This document shows positions 41,334 through 47,506 of a stretch of DNA of 64,000 bases, piece after piece. How positions within the stretch are numbered: the first letter of the stretch is position 1; the number at the start of each line of letters is the position of its first letter. The notes below the pieces were generated by a model. It had not been told where the DNA came from. It did no database searches and worked only from the letters and a program-made list of their open reading frames with translations. The position numbers and the translations under genes are program-made. The DNA lies in the NCBI RefSeq assembly GCF_026427775.1, contig NZ_CP044532.1:4340001-4404000 (forward strand), written 5' to 3'. The stretch comes from Arthrobacter sp. CDRTa11 (GTDB lineage Bacteria; Actinomycetota; Actinomycetes; Actinomycetales; Micrococcaceae).

Positions 41334-42611
41334 CTAGCTGAAGCGGTCGATGATCTTGGCGGCCCCGCCGATGAAGGGCAGGAACCACGGCGGGCCGAAG
41401 TGGCCCGGCACGGGCGGATTCTTCAGGTCTTCCCACACGTTGGCGCTCTTGTCGCCAGCCATGTAGTGAGCCATCCGCTTACCCATGTGGGCAGCCATCT
41501 GCACGCCGTGTCCGCTGTAGGCCAAGGAGTAGTAAAGCCCGTCGTGGACACCGGCATGAACCATCTGGTCCATGGAGAGGTCCACCAGGCCGCCCCAGAT
41601 GTAGTCCACCTTGGCGTTGGAGAGGTAAGGGAAGAGCTCGAGCATGGCCTTGCGGAGGATCTCGGCGCTCTTGACGTCCGAGTCCGGGCTGGACAGCGCG
41701 AAACGGGCCCGGCCGCCGAACAGCAGCCTGTTATCGGGTGTAATTCGGAAGTAGTAACAGAGCATCTTGCTGTCCGACGCCATGCGCCTGTTCGGCAGGA
41801 TCCGGTTGACCACGTCTTCGGGCAACGGCTCGGTGCAGATGATGAAGCTGCCCACCGGGATCACCCGACGCTGCAGCCACGGGGTGACGTTGCCGGTGTA
41901 ACCGCTGGTGGCCACCAAGACCTGCTTGGCCCGCGTGATGCCCCGGGTGGTGTGCACGTCGTGCACAGTGCCGGAAACCTTCTTCAGCTCCGTGACACCG
42001 GCTTCCTCGCAGATATCAGCCCCGGCGACGACAGCCGCCCCGCCCAACCCATGCACAAACTTGCCCACATGCAGCCCTGCTCCCAGCGGGTCAAGCATGG
42101 CCCCCTGGTAGAAGTCCGTACCGATTTCGCTGTGGATCTCAGACTTGGGGATAACGGTGACATGGTGGTCGGCCAGGGCGGCCATCTTCTCCTGCGACCT
42201 CAGGAAGCCTTCGTAGTGGGACTTGTGGAAGGCCAGCGAGAGCTTCCCGTCCCGCTTGTAGTCGCACTCAATGCCATTGTCATGCACCAGCTTCTCGATG
42301 CTGTCGATGGCGTCGTTGTATTCACGGAACATCTCCACGGCACGCGTGGCACCGTAGCGCTTCACCGCCGTGCCGAAACCGATGGCCAACCCGGTCGTCG
42401 CCATTCCCCCGTTGCGGCCCGATGCGCCCCACCCCACGGTGTGGCGTTCGAAAACTGCAACGCTGGCGCCCTGCTGGGCAAATTCCAGGGCAGCGGAGAG
42501 TCCGGTGAAGCCGGCGCCGATAATGGCGACGTCGACGTTCTCGGGTACCGGGGTTCGCCGGTAGTCCCCGGACGGTTCTGCAGTGTCCAGCCAATAGGGG
42601 TTGAGTTTCAC
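41334..42611 (-). CDS. FAD-dependent amine oxidase (PuuB/DadA-like)
   Basis: The 425-residue protein has an FAD-binding motif (DVAIIGAGFTGLSAALEFAQQG, about residues 27-48) and the PuuB-type WGASGRNGGM motif. The C-terminal Y(S)LAYSGHGVQMAAHMGKRMAHYMAG matches the gamma-glutamylputrescine oxidase group. It should oxidise an amine to aldehyde plus ammonia with oxygen. A 27-base gap separates it from the HAD gene upstream. It is the second flavin amine oxidase in this regulon, distinct from the sarcosine-oxidase-like one. Confidence 0.85.
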   Translation of the reverse strand: MKLNPYWLDTAEPSGDYRRTPVPENVDVAIIGAGFTGLSAALEFAQQGASVAVFERHTVGWGASGRNGGMATTGLAIGFGTAVKRYGATRAVEMFREYNDAIDSIEKLVHDNGIECDYKRDGKLSLAFHKSHYEGFLRSQEKMAALADHHVTVIPKSEIHSEIGTDFYQGAMLDPLGAGLHVGKFVHGLGGAAVVAGADICEEAGVTELKKVSGTVHDVHTTRGITRAKQVLVATSGYTGNVTPWLQRRVIPVGSFIICTEPLPEDVVNRILPNRRMASDSKMLCYYFRITPDNRLLFGGRARFALSSPDSDVKSAEILRKAMLELFPYLSNAKVDYIWGGLVDLSMDQMVHAGVHDGLYYSLAYSGHGVQMAAHMGKRMAHYMAGDKSANVWEDLKNPPVPGHFGPPWFLPFIGGAAKIIDRFS

Positions 42612-42638
42612 GGGTTGACCTTTCGCCTGGGAGCCGGT

Positions 42639-43310
42639 TTACAGACCGAGGTGCTTGTTGATCTCGTCCAGGGACTTAACGGCGTTGTAGTCGTAGCCAC
42701 CGGTGATGGGGTCGTAGCCACGGTCCAGCACCCAGAGGTTCCGGAAGCCCATGTCATGCATCGGGTGCATGTCGTAGCGAGTGTGCGAGGCGATGTGCAG
42801 GAAGTCCTCGGGCTTGGCGTTCAAGGTATCGAGCATGTACTCGAAGGCCTGGTAGCGCGGCTTGTAAGCCTGGGCCTGCTCAGCTGTCAACACGGCGTGG
42901 AAGTCAGCACCGAGCTTGGGAATGCTGATCTCCAGGAAGCTGTCGTCTGCGTTGGACAGAGCCACCAGCTTGTAGTTGTCGCCCATGAGCTTCAGCGGAG
43001 CCGGCACGTCATCGTGGGCACCAAAGCCGCGTACAGCGTCAGCGAACTCCGCGCCCGCACCAGGGGTGGGCCCAATGCCAAAGAACTTGCATACGCGGTC
43101 GAAGGAATTCTGGAGGATCTCCTCGTAGGGCTTGTAATCGCCAAGGACCTCGTCGAACCGGTACCCGCGGAAAACCTTCTTGAACGCAGGCCACTGCTCT
43201 TCGGGCAGACGGCCGGCGAGCAGCCGGCGGGTAGTGGAATCGGTATCCCAGTTGATCAGTGTGCCGTAGATATCAAAAGAAATGTACTTCGGCCGGTTGG
43301 AGTCTGCCAT
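42639..43310 (-). CDS. HAD-superfamily hydrolase (haloacid dehalogenase type II-like)
   Basis: I use ATG 43310 (223 residues, MADSNRPKYISF); ATGs at 43325 and further upstream are possible since no strong ribosome site is seen. Motif I is FDIYGTLINWD (catalytic Asp), motif II Ser/Asn in VALSNADDS, motif III Lys near YKPRYQAFEY and motif IV in GFRNLWVLDRG. Type II dehalogenase-like HADs replace halide or phosphate. In this operon, with amine oxidase and aldehyde dehydrogenase, removal of phosphate is also possible. The C-terminus is copied in the remnant at 30589. Confidence 0.83.
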   Translation of the reverse strand: MADSNRPKYISFDIYGTLINWDTDSTTRRLLAGRLPEEQWPAFKKVFRGYRFDEVLGDYKPYEEILQNSFDRVCKFFGIGPTPGAGAEFADAVRGFGAHDDVPAPLKLMGDNYKLVALSNADDSFLEISIPKLGADFHAVLTAEQAQAYKPRYQAFEYMLDTLNAKPEDFLHIASHTRYDMHPMHDMGFRNLWVLDRGYDPITGGYDYNAVKSLDEINKHLGL

Positions 43311-43426
43311 GATTCGTCCGTTCATTGAAAGTTTCGAGAGGCCATGGGTGACCTTCTGCGTTTGTAGGTGTCTGAGCTCCACGGGTTCCTCTGGGGACTG
43401 ATGAACTCCGGCAGCTCGATACGTCG

Positions 43427-43475
43427 ACTTTAGAGCCCGTATTATCTTTCTGTCAACAGTTGAACAGTTCAGCTG
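43427..43475 (-). promoter_or_regulatory. Promoter and repeat operator of the HAD-oxidase operon
   Basis: On the minus strand, tandem AACTGTTC and AACTGTTG units run directly into a -35 TTGACA (43451-43456). After 18 bases comes a -10 TAAAGT (43427-43432). The repeat has the same 8-bp period and the same fusion to the -35 box as the ABC operon promoter at 31784-31806. The transcript would have a leader of about 110 bases. Confidence 0.65.
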
Positions 43476-43539
43476 CAGCGCATCTAGAATCCCTGCAAAA
43501 AATGGTCACCCTGGGAGGCGACGCATACCCGCGAACGGC

Positions 43540-43570
43540 GATGGGGTCCGGTTGATCACCGGACCCCATC
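43540..43570 (-). terminator. Terminator after the ParM-like gene
   Basis: A perfect 13-bp stem (GATGGGGTCCGGT, 43540-43552, with its complement at 43558-43570) and a five-base loop lie 35 bases beyond the ParM-like stop. It separates this module from the HAD operon promoter. Confidence 0.75.
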
Positions 43571-43604
43571 ATCAAAGCTTCTTACCATTCACTGCCCGTG
43601 GTAC

Positions 43605-44924
43605 CTACACGGCAGCCTCAACGAGCTTCTTGTTGGCCGAACGGGCGCTGCGCTTACCATTGGTAGCCGGTGCTGCGCCGGCTCGTTCTTCCACGGCCTG
43701 GGCGGCAATGTAGAGACCCTCACGATTGAGGTTTCGTGAGTAGGAGGAGTCCAGGTAAAGAGTCGGGAACGAGTCCACCGAGTTCATCTCGGTGGCCTTG
43801 GCAAGAAGCGCGGGATACAGATGTGGCTTCACCGGACCTGCCCCGCCGCCGAAGACGTACGCGACCTCTGTGGTCGCACCGACGATGGCCAGAACGCGGC
43901 CGAAGCGCTCGGTAACTTCCTTGGCAAAGAACCGCATCTCTTCATCAACGAACTGAGCGACCTTGTCATAGAAGTTACGCTTCAACGGCGACGCTCCGGC
44001 CTGCAAATACTCGGCCAACTGCTTGCGGGAAGTGAAGCCATGCGAGAAGCCCTGGTCCTCCATCGCCTTCAGCGCGTCATTAAGAACCGAACCATAACCT
44101 CGGTTGTGCGTAGTAGAGGCGTCGGCGTTGAACTCTCCGGCGGTGAAGACAGGAAAATTGACTGTTCCTTCACCGACATCGATGCCGATAGTGTGCTCGG
44201 CGGCGAGCACGTCAGCAGAAGTGATGCCCACCAGTGACAGGCCCCTGCGACGGACATCGGCAAGCATAGCGTCCATCAACGGCTCACCCTTGGCAGTGAT
44301 GGCATACTGAGCCGACGCACCCTCGGGGATCACCTGTACATCCACGAATTCAAGCTTCACGGTGACCGGAGTCTCGAAGTTATGAACAGTAACCGTATGC
44401 GTACCGCTCGTGAACTCAGCTGCATAGCTAGTGCGGTGTGAGATGTACTCGTTGATCGGCAGCGCAAGTGCTACCCGGGCCTCCACATACAGGGTTTCGA
44501 TAGCCGGCGGCAATCCACCGTGCTGACGCACGTAGTCACGCAGGGCCTTGGCGGCGAAAGCACCCATGACCAGGACCTTGCTCAGCTCCTGCTGGGCCTT
44601 GCTGCGACGGCCAACCACGTCGAACTCATCAAAGGCACCTTGGGCGCTCAGAGCACGCAGGCCGAAGAGCCTGCGGTGATAATTGCTGACCAGCGGGGAG
44701 ACGAAGCTGACGTCCAGCTCATTGTAGAAGTTGCCTTCCAGCTTCGCGGCGGCTTCATCGTCAGGGGTCGGCAAAGCGTTCGGGCGCGTGATCGTTGACA
44801 CGCCGCTTGGCAAGTCGATCTCGTCCACCTTGGTTGTACCTGATGCACCGGCGCCGCGGATGAGGCCCTTCACATAGCCGTTGCCAACGTCGATGCCACC
44901 GGTGAGATTGATCGAAATGGTCAT
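43605..44924 (-). CDS. parM: Actin-like ATPase of ParM/StbA type
   Basis: The 439-residue protein has the actin-fold signatures: phosphate-1 loop GIDVGNGYVKG (residues 10-20), phosphate-2 loop IGIDVGEGTVNFPVF (about 245-259) and adenosine motif VFGGGAGPVKP (about 354-364). Such proteins (ParM, AlfA, Alp7, archaeal Ta0583) form filaments that push plasmids apart. The gene before it encodes a ribbon-helix-helix protein, the usual centromere-binding partner. A basic tail (GKRSARSANKK) ends the protein. AAGGGATC precedes the ATG. The GC content appears lower than in the catabolic genes on both sides. I see no replication gene nearby, so it may be a chromosomal or integrated-plasmid copy. MreB is excluded by motif forms. 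Confidence 0.82.
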   Translation of the reverse strand: MTISINLTGGIDVGNGYVKGLIRGAGASGTTKVDEIDLPSGVSTITRPNALPTPDDEAAAKLEGNFYNELDVSFVSPLVSNYHRRLFGLRALSAQGAFDEFDVVGRRSKAQQELSKVLVMGAFAAKALRDYVRQHGGLPPAIETLYVEARVALALPINEYISHRTSYAAEFTSGTHTVTVHNFETPVTVKLEFVDVQVIPEGASAQYAITAKGEPLMDAMLADVRRRGLSLVGITSADVLAAEHTIGIDVGEGTVNFPVFTAGEFNADASTTHNRGYGSVLNDALKAMEDQGFSHGFTSRKQLAEYLQAGASPLKRNFYDKVAQFVDEEMRFFAKEVTERFGRVLAIVGATTEVAYVFGGGAGPVKPHLYPALLAKATEMNSVDSFPTLYLDSSYSRNLNREGLYIAAQAVEERAGAAPATNGKRSARSANKKLVEAAV

Positions 44925-45004
44925 GAAGTGATCCCTTCGTGGAAAGTGTTTGATGTGGTTACTGGGTTGCCATACAAGAGAAGTGCTGGGAGTTGTTACG
45001 GGAG

Positions 45005-45571
45005 TTAGCGCAGCATCGAGAAGATGTCGTTAACTTCAACCTGTTCGACAGATGGCTGCTCCGGTTCAGGAGTGGTCAAGGAGGAAGTCTGCATGTCGTC
45101 CTGTTTTGGTGCAGACTTCGGAACCAGTGCCGGGACTGCCAGTGCGATGTCCTGGATCTCGGGTTCGGTGCTTGTCTGCTGGCTGGGATCCGGATCCGCG
45201 GACGGAGCACGTGCCGCCTTCTGCTGAACCAACGCAGCCGGCGCGCCAGCCATTTCTGCATTCCGCTCTGTCCGTGTTGATCCCTCCTCAGGACCAACAA
45301 GACGTTCCCGCGTGGGAAGTTGGGAAACTGGTCGGTTGATGACATCGACATAGCCAAGGCGCTCGATGCTCTCACGGATCAGCATCCGAATAGATAGTGA
45401 TGGGTTATCCTGCAAATCCATCCACGCCAACACAGCCTCATCGGCTGCGGGGACGCTCAAGCGGAATCGCTGCGGCGGCGGTTTCACAGTTGTGACTGCA
45501 GAAGTTTTTGACGTCTTCTTAGCAGCCGCCCTCGCCTTTGGCGCTGCCGCCTTGCTCTGAAGATTGGCCAT
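45005..45571 (-). CDS. Ribbon-helix-helix ParR-like partner of the actin-like protein
   Basis: The 188-residue protein has three parts. A basic Lys/Ala-rich N-terminus (residues 1-34) is followed by a ribbon-helix-helix-like core (FRLSVPAADEAVLAWMDLQ and PSLSIRMLIRESIERLGYVDV, about 36-79) and a long Pro/Gln/acidic low-complexity tail. It ends in a hydrophobic VEVNDIFSMLR. In ParR of plasmid R1 the C-terminal peptide caps the ParM filament; the closing hydrophobic residues may do this here. A strong GGGGGAGGG site precedes the ATG. The gene order, partner before ATPase, reverses that of R1 parMR. The gap to parM is 80 bases. Confidence 0.65.
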   Translation of the reverse strand: MANLQSKAAAPKARAAAKKTSKTSAVTTVKPPPQRFRLSVPAADEAVLAWMDLQDNPSLSIRMLIRESIERLGYVDVINRPVSQLPTRERLVGPEEGSTRTERNAEMAGAPAALVQQKAARAPSADPDPSQQTSTEPEIQDIALAVPALVPKSAPKQDDMQTSSLTTPEPEQPSVEQVEVNDIFSMLR

Positions 45572-45800
45572 AGACCCTCCCCCTCTCTTTCTCCGATTAA
45601 CAAAAGTTCACGATAAGACTCAGGCTCTCGCCTAGCTCTCCGCCCACGCATGACCCGTCTCGCGGTCAATTCTGGTCAGGAACAACCCAACCTTAGCCCG
45701 CAATTTATGGTGCAACTTACCGCTGCTACAACTGATCCTTATGCCTCGCGCAGTGGTTTCTTTTTTGTTGGGATCTGCGCCTGGAACTAATGTTGTCCGC
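45572..45800. promoter_or_regulatory. Control region between parR-like gene and HTH gene, with leaderless promoter
   Basis: The 229-bp divergent region is AT-richer than its surroundings. A promoter for the HTH gene reads TTGTTG (45765-45770), 17 bases, TAATGT (45788-45793), which puts the transcript start at or next to ATG 45801. A centromere would be expected here; I see only isolated direct repeats (GGTCA twice near 45664-45679, CAACT twice near 45713-45734), no clear iteron array. Confidence 0.4.
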
Positions 45801-46103
45801 ATGAGTGCAGAACGAAAAGCCAGCCGCCACGCCCAAGAATTTCGGTGGCACCAGATCAACCTCCAGTTACCGGAGACCGAAGCTGCTATTCGTGACCTCA
45901 GGGCCCTCAAGGAGGCGGTTGACCAACTCCTCATCGAAGCTGTCATCCGAGCCCACGACGAAGGAATGAGCCCGGCAAGCCTTGCTGATTCGCTCGGATT
46001 TACTAAGCACATCGCGGCGGAGCGACCCTCCCCTGAAATCCTGAACCTTCCAGCAGCACGGCCTTCTGGCCGCCGCGGCATTCATTTTGAGCCAATGGGC
46101 TAA
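45801..46103 (+). CDS. Small helix-turn-helix protein
   Basis: ATG 45801 gives 100 residues starting MSAERKASRHAQEF; an in-frame ATG at 45741 would add 20 residues from a T-rich stretch that looks like promoter DNA. The core, QLLIEAVIRAHDEGMSPASLADSLGFTKHIAAER, matches a sigma-region-4/antitoxin-like HTH. It diverges from the parR-parM pair and may regulate it or share its DNA site. The C-terminus is Pro/Arg-rich. The leaderless start and small size make the assignment moderate. Confidence 0.55.
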   Translation: MSAERKASRHAQEFRWHQINLQLPETEAAIRDLRALKEAVDQLLIEAVIRAHDEGMSPASLADSLGFTKHIAAERPSPEILNLPAARPSGRRGIHFEPMG

Positions 46104-46381
46104 TTAAGGAAGCGGCCCCGCCGGGGTCATGAACTGCTCCTCCGCTGCTTTCGCGAGACGGCCCGCCTCCGCAGCCGCAGCATCTCGACGTGCCAGGCCT
46201 GCCGCTTGTGGAAGCAGATGCTCACAGCCACCAGAGGCCGCCACATCAGGTAATCCATAATCCTTGCGATCCAAAGCCATTGCATGGCATACTCTGTGAT
46301 GTAGAACTGTTGAACAGCAGAGCAGATCAACATTTTCAGTACCTTTATCAATTTCCCCCTTTAGCGGCAGGAGCCTAGGAC
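46104..46381 (+). promoter_or_regulatory. Control region of the kinase/PLP-enzyme operon with the shared operator
   Basis: GAACTGTTGAACAG (46304-46317) matches the repeat at 31784 and 43451, with TTGAAC (46311-46316) in the -35 position 65 bases before the kinase ATG. A GGCCCCGCCGGGGTC hairpin at 46114-46128 may end the HTH gene. A 74-codon frame on the other strand has no ribosome site and is not called. Confidence 0.55.
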
Positions 46382-47458
46382 ATGGCTGTCAGTACCGACT
46401 CCGAGTTTTTCGACGCCGTCGCGTCCGAGAGTGGGCTCTTGGCCGAGCAGTCCCAGCTCGCCGATTCGACTGTATTGGAGCTCCTCGAACAGTCCTATGG
46501 CCTGAAGGGGACCCTGGTCCGGATTCCGACGGAGAAGGACGATACTTTCCGCCTCTGGGACGGTGAAGAAACTTTTCTGGTGAAGGTGTCGCCGCCGGAT
46601 GAGGACCCGGTGATCGTCCACTTTCAAACAGCCTGCATGGAGCATCTGGAGACCACTGCCCCGGAACTTCCGGTCCAGCGCCTGGTCAGGAGCCTTGGCG
46701 GAGATCCGCAAGTCCTCATTCCGGCACCAGAGGGACCCTTTGACCGGGTGCTTCGGGTGATGCGCTTCATGCCCGGAAATCTGCTGGCCAGTCACGACGC
46801 TTCCGCCGGTCAGCTTCAGTTGGTGGGCTCAAGCCTGGCCCGCGTCGGCCTTGCTTTGCAGGACTTCGATCATGCCCGTGCGGACCGGCTGCTCCTGTGG
46901 GACCTGAAACACTTTCACCGGATGCGGCCGCTGCTTGACTACGTTGATGAGCCGCACAAACGCTCCCTGGCCGAAGACATTTTTGACCGGTTCGACGAGA
47001 ACGTGGTTCCGCTTCTGGGTTCCCTGACCTCCCAGATTGTGCACGGGGATTTCAGCCCGTTCAATGTCCTGATCGACCCGGACAGGCCGGAATACGTCAC
47101 CGGGATCATCGACTTCGGCGACGTCGTGCGCACCCCGGTGATCTTCGACATCAGCGTCACCATGGCCAACCTGCTCGGAACAGACCCGGCCAGCCCCTGG
47201 AAACACGCACTGCACGTCATGGACGGCTACCTGAGCATCCGCCCGCTGCCCGAGGCGGAGCTGGAAGCTCTGATCATCTCAGCCCAGGCCCGCCTGCTCC
47301 TGCGCGCACTGATCACGCAGTGGCGTGCGAGTCAATTGCCGCAAAGACGCGATTACCTCCTCTCCCACTCCAAACCGGACTGGGACCGCCTCGCCGCCAC
47401 CGCAGCCACGCCGGCACCACAGACCGCACATCCCACCCTCAACCACGTCGGACCCTGA
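46382..47458 (+). CDS. APH-fold kinase, hydroxylysine/ethanolamine kinase-like
   Basis: The 358-residue protein has the aminoglycoside phosphotransferase fold: catalytic loop HGDFSPFNVLIDP (about residues 220-232) and metal-binding DFGD in GIIDFGDVVRTPVIFDI (about 242-258). The spacing and GIxDFGD form resemble eukaryotic hydroxylysine kinase and its bacterial relatives. The next gene encodes a class III PLP enzyme of the phospho-lyase type, and such kinases are often paired with it: the kinase would phosphorylate the hydroxyl and the lyase eliminate phosphate and ammonia. AGGAG lies upstream of the ATG. Confidence 0.8.
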   Translation: MAVSTDSEFFDAVASESGLLAEQSQLADSTVLELLEQSYGLKGTLVRIPTEKDDTFRLWDGEETFLVKVSPPDEDPVIVHFQTACMEHLETTAPELPVQRLVRSLGGDPQVLIPAPEGPFDRVLRVMRFMPGNLLASHDASAGQLQLVGSSLARVGLALQDFDHARADRLLLWDLKHFHRMRPLLDYVDEPHKRSLAEDIFDRFDENVVPLLGSLTSQIVHGDFSPFNVLIDPDRPEYVTGIIDFGDVVRTPVIFDISVTMANLLGTDPASPWKHALHVMDGYLSIRPLPEAELEALIISAQARLLLRALITQWRASQLPQRRDYLLSHSKPDWDRLAATAATPAPQTAHPTLNHVGP

Positions 47459-47506
47459 ACCAGATCAAACGCTGAACCAGACTCACTAGCCTTCAAGGAG
47501 AAAATC

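Follow-up and report, generated by a model that had tools for sequence, protein, structure and literature searches.

What leads chromosomes to retain ParM systems is an open question in the field (PMC12270681), and it is raised again by a locus on the chromosome of Arthrobacter sp. CDRTa11, where a gene for an actin-like ATPase lies next to one for a putative DNA-binding adaptor. The locus was analyzed within a window of 64,000 nt, the whole stretch of DNA under study (NZ_CP044532.1, positions 4,340,001-4,404,000). Both ORFs of the pair were found where a preliminary description, made from the sequence, had placed them, and together with a divergent third gene they form a cassette of about 2.54 kb (Table 1). 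Its GC content is 58.0% vs 63.3% for the window, and values as low were found in 5 of 246 sliding windows, a number that includes those overlapping the cassette itself. We consider it fairly probable that this is a type II (actin-based), adaptor-first partition cassette of the AlpA-AlpC type, living in and moving among chromosomes, an interpretation that retains part of the preliminary one. The small size of the unit, its visible borders, the existence of uninterrupted sites and the free-living soil genus make deletion and plasmid-uptake tests direct.

Table 1. Features of the cassette and its borders, in window coordinates unless given as residues.
Feature	Position	Strand	Basis
Actin-like ATPase (ParM/AlpC type), 439 aa	43605..44924	-	Pfam, PHROG, fold match, dN/dS
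Putative DNA-binding adaptor (ParR/AlpA-like), 188 aa	45005..45571	-	Model and conservation
Adaptor parts: predicted RHH core (residues ~33-90), linker of variable sequence, and EVNDIFSMLR as the conserved C-terminal peptide			
Third cassette gene, 100 aa, putative HTH regulator	45801..46103	+	Linkage, weak PHROG match, conserved start
Divergent intergenic region, promoters and candidate centromere/operator	45572..45800	.	Conserved block, motif counts
TGACC/GGTCA copies in the intergenic region	45674-45678, 45664-45668, 45651-45655		
Perfect 12-bp hairpin 3' of parM, probable terminator	43541..43569	.	Sequence and self-match
IS3-type IS end stub (TGAACTGCTCC) in the loop of the third gene's former terminator	46130..46140	.	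Common junction in relatives
Insert relative to the uninterrupted site	43470..46250 (right edge approximate)	.	G115 and G048 without the segment between the same two genes

The ATPase matched the Pfam profile ALP_N (2.1e-8, above the family cut-off), MreB-like_C (1.1e-4, below the family cut-off) and PHROG 691, annotated as "partition protein" (7.8e-24). The residues of the actin-type nucleotide motifs, D12, Q206, D249 and G359-G361, are invariant in 13 aligned sequences, that of the window included. The same kind of nucleotide motifs is reported for AlpC in PMC4446434. In a fold search with the predicted model, whose confidence is moderate (mean pLDDT 64, with residues 8-68 and 86-108 below 50), the top rows were structures of ParM, Alp7A and CorM; MreB, DnaK and FtsA were ranked lower by Foldseek, and a family missing from the VIA-align rows is not thereby ruled out. 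Judged by its modeled fold, the ATPase is a member of the ParM/Alp branch. An FtsA, MreB or Hsp70 identity, named in advance as the outcome that would speak against a ParM, was rejected because the ParM/Alp rows come first. The profile matches, the fold and the invariant residues thus agree with the original assignment to a ParM-type ATPase with three actin-fold nucleotide motifs.

Counting that of the window, 20 of the 198 genus genomes contained a match to this ParM. Nine genomes carry a ParM of at least 92% identity, hereafter class A (G000, G086, G061, G048, G109, G143, G159, G041 and G095, the last with its ParM split by a frameshift), and nine others at 49-54% make up class B, with G048 carrying both classes; two further genomes of the genus contain short ParM pieces only. 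At the family level matches came from 16 of 395 genomes; in four, all of one genus (Sinomonas), identity was 80-82%, and in another four the match was only weak or short, while at the class level the single match among 394 genomes was the window's own. The adaptor gene precedes the ATPase gene, the reverse of R1 parMR as had been pointed out before, both in the window and in those relatives where an adaptor was found (none was found at L049, and the Limosilactobacillus locus L126 lay outside the adaptor check). The literature searched contained no paper on an actin-like ParM of Arthrobacter and none on an actin-like protein of Sinomonas.

For the adaptor, no family match at E ≤ 1 was obtained in Pfam, NCBIfam or PHROGs. 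Its model, weak overall (mean pLDDT 55.5), comprises a strand at residues 34-39 and helices at 43-53 and 59-72 (pLDDT ~72-83 over residues 31-80), followed by a strand at 74-79 and, after a long run of residues of low confidence, by a short helix near the end (183-186). The beta-alpha-alpha order at 34-72 is that of a ribbon-helix-helix (RHH) domain, and an RHH core is predicted on this ground; a PDB fold search with the weak model returned no RHH protein and nothing useful. Among 10 class A and Sinomonas adaptors, mean pairwise column identity was 0.88 in the core (33-90), 0.43 in the linker (91-178, where the best nine-residue stretch reached 0.67) and 0.84 in the last nine residues, and among all 17 aligned adaptors it was 0.62, 0.23 and, for residues 179-188, 0.35. 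A short acidic-hydrophobic tail was recognized by eye in 16 of the 17, the exception being L048, with distant tails such as DDFEDLFRR, SIDEIMASTRR and GLDAFLTR. By analogy, the C-terminal peptide may be the parallel of the ParR peptide in structure 4a62, whose title describes R1 ParM bound to a peptide from the ParR C-terminus. The hydrophobic last peptide of the preliminary description is therefore conserved and its disordered tail corresponds to a variable, low-confidence linker, whereas its RHH label reflects the order of elements in the model.

The third gene was present in all nine genomes with a ParM at least 92% identical and in none of the other 189 of the genus, and a tblastn search of plasmids with it returned nothing. 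Because only the part of the divergent ORF from 45801 (MSAERKAS...) is conserved, its start is probably located there, and the ORF from 45741 would then be 20 codons too long. The gene is real, and its HTH label corresponds to a weak PHROG match (0.0046). Judged by this genomic linkage, the cassette is a strict three-gene unit that adds a third gene to the partition module.

Pairwise dN/dS values for parM were 0.058-0.167 between the window and six class A copies, 0.11-0.14 between the window and two Sinomonas copies, and 0.12-0.23 for three other pairs; those of the adaptor were 0.30-0.58 overall and ~0.11-0.34 in the core (six pairs), and those of the third gene 0.13-0.41. ParM is under purifying selection. 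Selection of this strength would also be expected of a domesticated cytoskeleton with a job other than segregation, like FcmBC in the cell shape of filamentous cyanobacteria, and chromosomal precedents are at hand in FcmBC (PMC12645912) and in the cParMRs (PMC12270681). However, the close form occurs in 9 of 198 genus genomes at unfixed sites, where a housekeeping role would be more stable, and the predicted DNA-binding core of the adaptor is conserved, which makes a cytoskeletal role rather unlikely.

The chromosomal position of the cassette was compared among relatives, as proposed at the outset, counting blastn matches of at least 150 bases between copies and of at least 250 bases between flanks. 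Of the eight class A copies besides the window's, that of G086 is at the same site and seven have other flanks. Five complete copies located elsewhere match the window over 2,544-2,593 bases; the match is broken into two pieces for L031 and partial for L037, which lies on a 6.7 kb contig. Matches among the seven copies with other flanks end within ~150 bases of the genes, with the exception of a 2.6 kb block common to L025 and L026, which lies 6-7 kb away and on opposite sides. Contigs of 4.3-5.2 Mb carry five of the nine class A copies; the neighbors of L035 are dnaK and dnaJ, and those of other copies, by eye, are sugar transport and other metabolic genes. In five genomes the distance from dnaA was 0.30, 0.88, 0.18, 0.10 and 0.48 of the half-genome, and an ori- or ter-bound location was rejected on this range. 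An auxiliary system for chromosome segregation would account for the chromosomal place and for a ParM-type motor with a DNA adaptor, but such scattered distances, together with the absence of the unit from most relatives, make it very unlikely.

Around the window's cassette, a profile scan of 13 neighboring proteins found no replication, relaxase, ParA or other plasmid function, in line with the initial remark that nothing plasmid-like surrounds the pair. A plasmid contig was rejected, as the cassette sits on the chromosome, and so was a prophage setting, with no match to the ATPase among the phage records searched, no tRNA in the window and no Rfam match in 42500-47500. Of the possibilities offered initially (a new chromosomal actin-like system, a megaplasmid module or an integrated-plasmid remnant), the chromosomal location stands and the plasmid contig is discarded, while the idea of a new kind of system fails because cParMRs are in print.

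An uninterrupted form of the site was found in two genomes: in G048 and G115 the window's HAD and APH genes are 95 and 30 bases apart (matched ends) vs ~2.8 kb in the window. These were the two colinear empty sites among 11 HAD/APH loci, the other nine being rearranged and left out, and G048, empty here, has its own cassette elsewhere. No target duplication was seen by eye at the window's site, and three flank searches for uninterrupted sites of other copies yielded repeat-rich, non-colinear matches with no clean site. A slowly decaying relic of an integrated plasmid would fit the lower GC content, the broken copy of G095 and the presence of ATPase relatives in 82 plasmid records. On the other hand, the two uninterrupted sites reveal a 2.8 kb insertion, the same minimal unit recurs at several sites, dN/dS is 0.06-0.17 in window pairs and no replication, relaxase or ParA gene lies among the scanned neighbors, so that a relic appears quite improbable.

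At the window's site, CTGTTGAACAG-like sites at 43450-43469 and 46307-46317 flank the insert, before the divergent HAD and APH genes, and the cassette divides a former short joint control region beside oxidase, aldehyde dehydrogenase, aminotransferase and GntR/FCD genes. The G086 locus (L032:1033-9702) contains ~8.7 kb extra with a solute-binding protein, an MR/MLE enzyme and an IS110-type transposase; the site common to G086 and the window is an insertion hot spot.

Regarding how the cassette moves, the copies at L025, L026 and L035 join an IS end at one and the same base in the loop of the terminator that follows the third gene, and the window and L032 have the same junction reduced to a stub. 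The IS, ~2.04 kb in L146, encodes an HTH_Tnp/rve gene pair as in the IS3 family. The terminator hairpin is intact in L031 and L039, degenerate in L038 and unreadable in L037. The third-gene tree sets apart the five IS-junction copies (support 0.989), whereas the parM tree places L035 with the remaining copies (0.968), a conflict that would be explained either if the IS inserted once and recombination followed, or if it inserted several times at a single spot. The common IS end of five copies is a hint at the mode of movement, and IS-assisted movement of the cassette is plausible.

Relatives of the ATPase were detected in the plasmid records mentioned above out of 72,556 searched, the closest being 51-54% identical; no plasmid copy exceeded 54% in this set, which may lack records close to the genome of the window. 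The actin of pGKT2, at 51.9%, is among the closest matches. Other matches were to plasmids of L. salivarius UCC118, L. mucosae LM1 and Geobacillus, and the species of these plasmids are given in PMC4446434 as carriers of AlpC homologues. An adaptor-first actin pair was located on four actinobacterial plasmids (NZ_CP109461.1, NZ_CP133331.1, NC_018580.1 and NZ_CP140265.1), where two of the four adaptors lack a blastp match to the window's at E 1e-3 and were assigned by place and layout; a tblastn search of plasmids with the window's adaptor gave one match, on a Streptomyces plasmid. A ParA gene lies within ~5 kb of the pair in the last three of these records, which may thus have two partition systems on one plasmid.

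Related pairs were also observed in other settings. A 251 kb IMG/VR contig contains an adaptor-first pair (L136:4590-6218, ParM 50% identical) near sortase and SSB genes, with two 11-bp tandem repeats upstream. In six genomes (G188, G140, G183, G191, G040 and G065) the class B pair lies in a block of ~16-20 kb that is 97-99.97% identical (L041, L042, L043, L044, L045 and L046), holds genes for a DHH/RecJ_OB protein, a YspA/SLOG protein and an SSB, is partly interrupted in two, and is probably a recently spread integrated element. At L048:8586-10415 the class B actin-like ORF is 609 aa in length and carries a long C-terminal extension; it may be fused to the next gene.

The adaptor-proximal block of the intergenic region is nearly unchanged among class A copies (part of L037 reads N), a degree of conservation that would suit an operator-centromere. 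We counted repeat motifs in the 260 bases upstream of the adaptor gene, with three motifs tried and picked after inspection and P values left uncorrected. TGRCC/GGYCA occurs 3 times in the window vs 1.0 expected (P 0.086); among four other class A loci the P values were 0.012 for L025 and 0.002 for L031, with L035 and L038 not significant. Three Sinomonas loci had 12, 9 and 8 copies vs 1.3, 1.9 and 1.6 in shuffles, counts reached by none of 500 shuffles at any of the three, with the start codon, and hence the upstream stretch, of L028 and L030 chosen by the analyst; many of the spacings are 9-12 or ~20 bases. In class B, GACCA/TGGTC was found 5 times vs 0.6 (L041) and 5 vs 0.8 (L047), TGRCCA twice vs 0.2 in L048 (P 0.012), and nothing significant in L040. 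Autocorrelation over 40 lags (uncorrected) placed lag 11 among the top six in L029, L030, L122, L125, L124/L123, L041, L047 and L048 (z 1.8-3.9), and outside them in L028, L040 and the window, in weak agreement with helical phasing. Tandem Repeats Finder reported no array in 43500-46300, and a repeat search of 45560-45760 found none. The absence of an obvious iteron centromere in 45572-45740, noted at first, thus holds for the window but does not extend to some relatives, as the Sinomonas repeats illustrate.

These counts bear on a further explanation, in which the cassette is a chromosome-borne incompatibility element that titrates, captures or destabilizes incoming plasmids or prophages with related centromeres and is kept for host protection. 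In its favor, related pairs are present on four actinobacterial plasmids, three near a ParA gene, a patchy, relocating and selected three-gene unit resembles defence genes, and in Clostridium perfringens the binding specificity of ParR determines plasmid incompatibility, according to PMC9426499. However, identity to the nearest plasmid relatives is 51-54%, and the repeat motif was in no excess in the three upstream regions tested from plasmids; a shared centromere therefore stays hypothetical, and we regard this function as unlikely. Also speculative, and hardly probable, is a nomadic centromere-plus-motor, a minimal three-gene cassette that would render no service to its own replicon, spread by IS ends and act in trans on invading plasmids or prophages, with the third gene as a switch.

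Returning to the chromosomal partition cassette that we favor, it most likely still works as a DNA-binding, filament-forming partition unit, both activities being inferred. The adaptor with its predicted RHH core would dimerize on short repeats that lie before its gene and would serve both as operator and as centromere, and its disordered linker would offer the C-terminal peptide to the ATPase. The latter would polymerize with nucleotide and push or anchor the DNA-adaptor complex, while the divergent putative HTH gene would regulate the operon.

The closest known system is AlpA-AlpC-alpS of the Corynebacterium glutamicum prophage CGP3, with its homologues on Gordonia plasmid pGKT2, compared here through published descriptions and the pGKT2 homologue. 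The alpA-alpC order, with the pGKT2 pair named as homologues, is described in PMC4446434, and the cassette has the same order of adaptor and actin genes as well as, in some of the window's relatives, repeats upstream of the adaptor. The alpS repeat TTAAnnG itself was found once in the window's 260 upstream bases and not at all in four relatives tested, with no array. As reported in PMC5539076, AlpA attaches to repeats preceding its gene and links the DNA with filaments of AlpC, and unbound AlpA promotes filament disassembly; by analogy, the same logic is expected for the window's cassette. Unlike AlpA-AlpC, the cassette includes a third gene and has no prophage or plasmid gene among the neighbors scanned.

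R1 ParMRC and srpMRC of the SXT/R391 ICEs (PMC4489591) combine an actin motor, a DNA adaptor and upstream repeats, as is proposed for the cassette, but in motor-first order and in a plasmid or ICE setting. Chromosomal ParM as such is not new, as published reports of cParMRs (PMC12270681) and FcmBC (PMC12645912) demonstrate; what should surprise specialists is that three strictly linked genes under selection recur as a unit at several chromosomal locations, and that the plasmid records searched contain no copy more than 54% identical. The main text of PMC12270681 makes no mention of Actinobacteria or Actinomycetes, and the window's host is an actinobacterium. FcmBC is also a plasmid-type actin/adaptor pair moved into the chromosome, but it is motor-first and has a demonstrated cell-shape role (PMC12645912). 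The cParMRs (Dh-cParM1, Cb-cParM and others) share with the cassette a chromosomal parMR; in contrast to the adaptor-first order of the window, Dh-cParR1 lies downstream of Dh-cParM1, and whereas conservation of Dh-cParM1 extends to five of six Desulfitobacterium species (PMC12270681), the three-gene unit of the window changes place.
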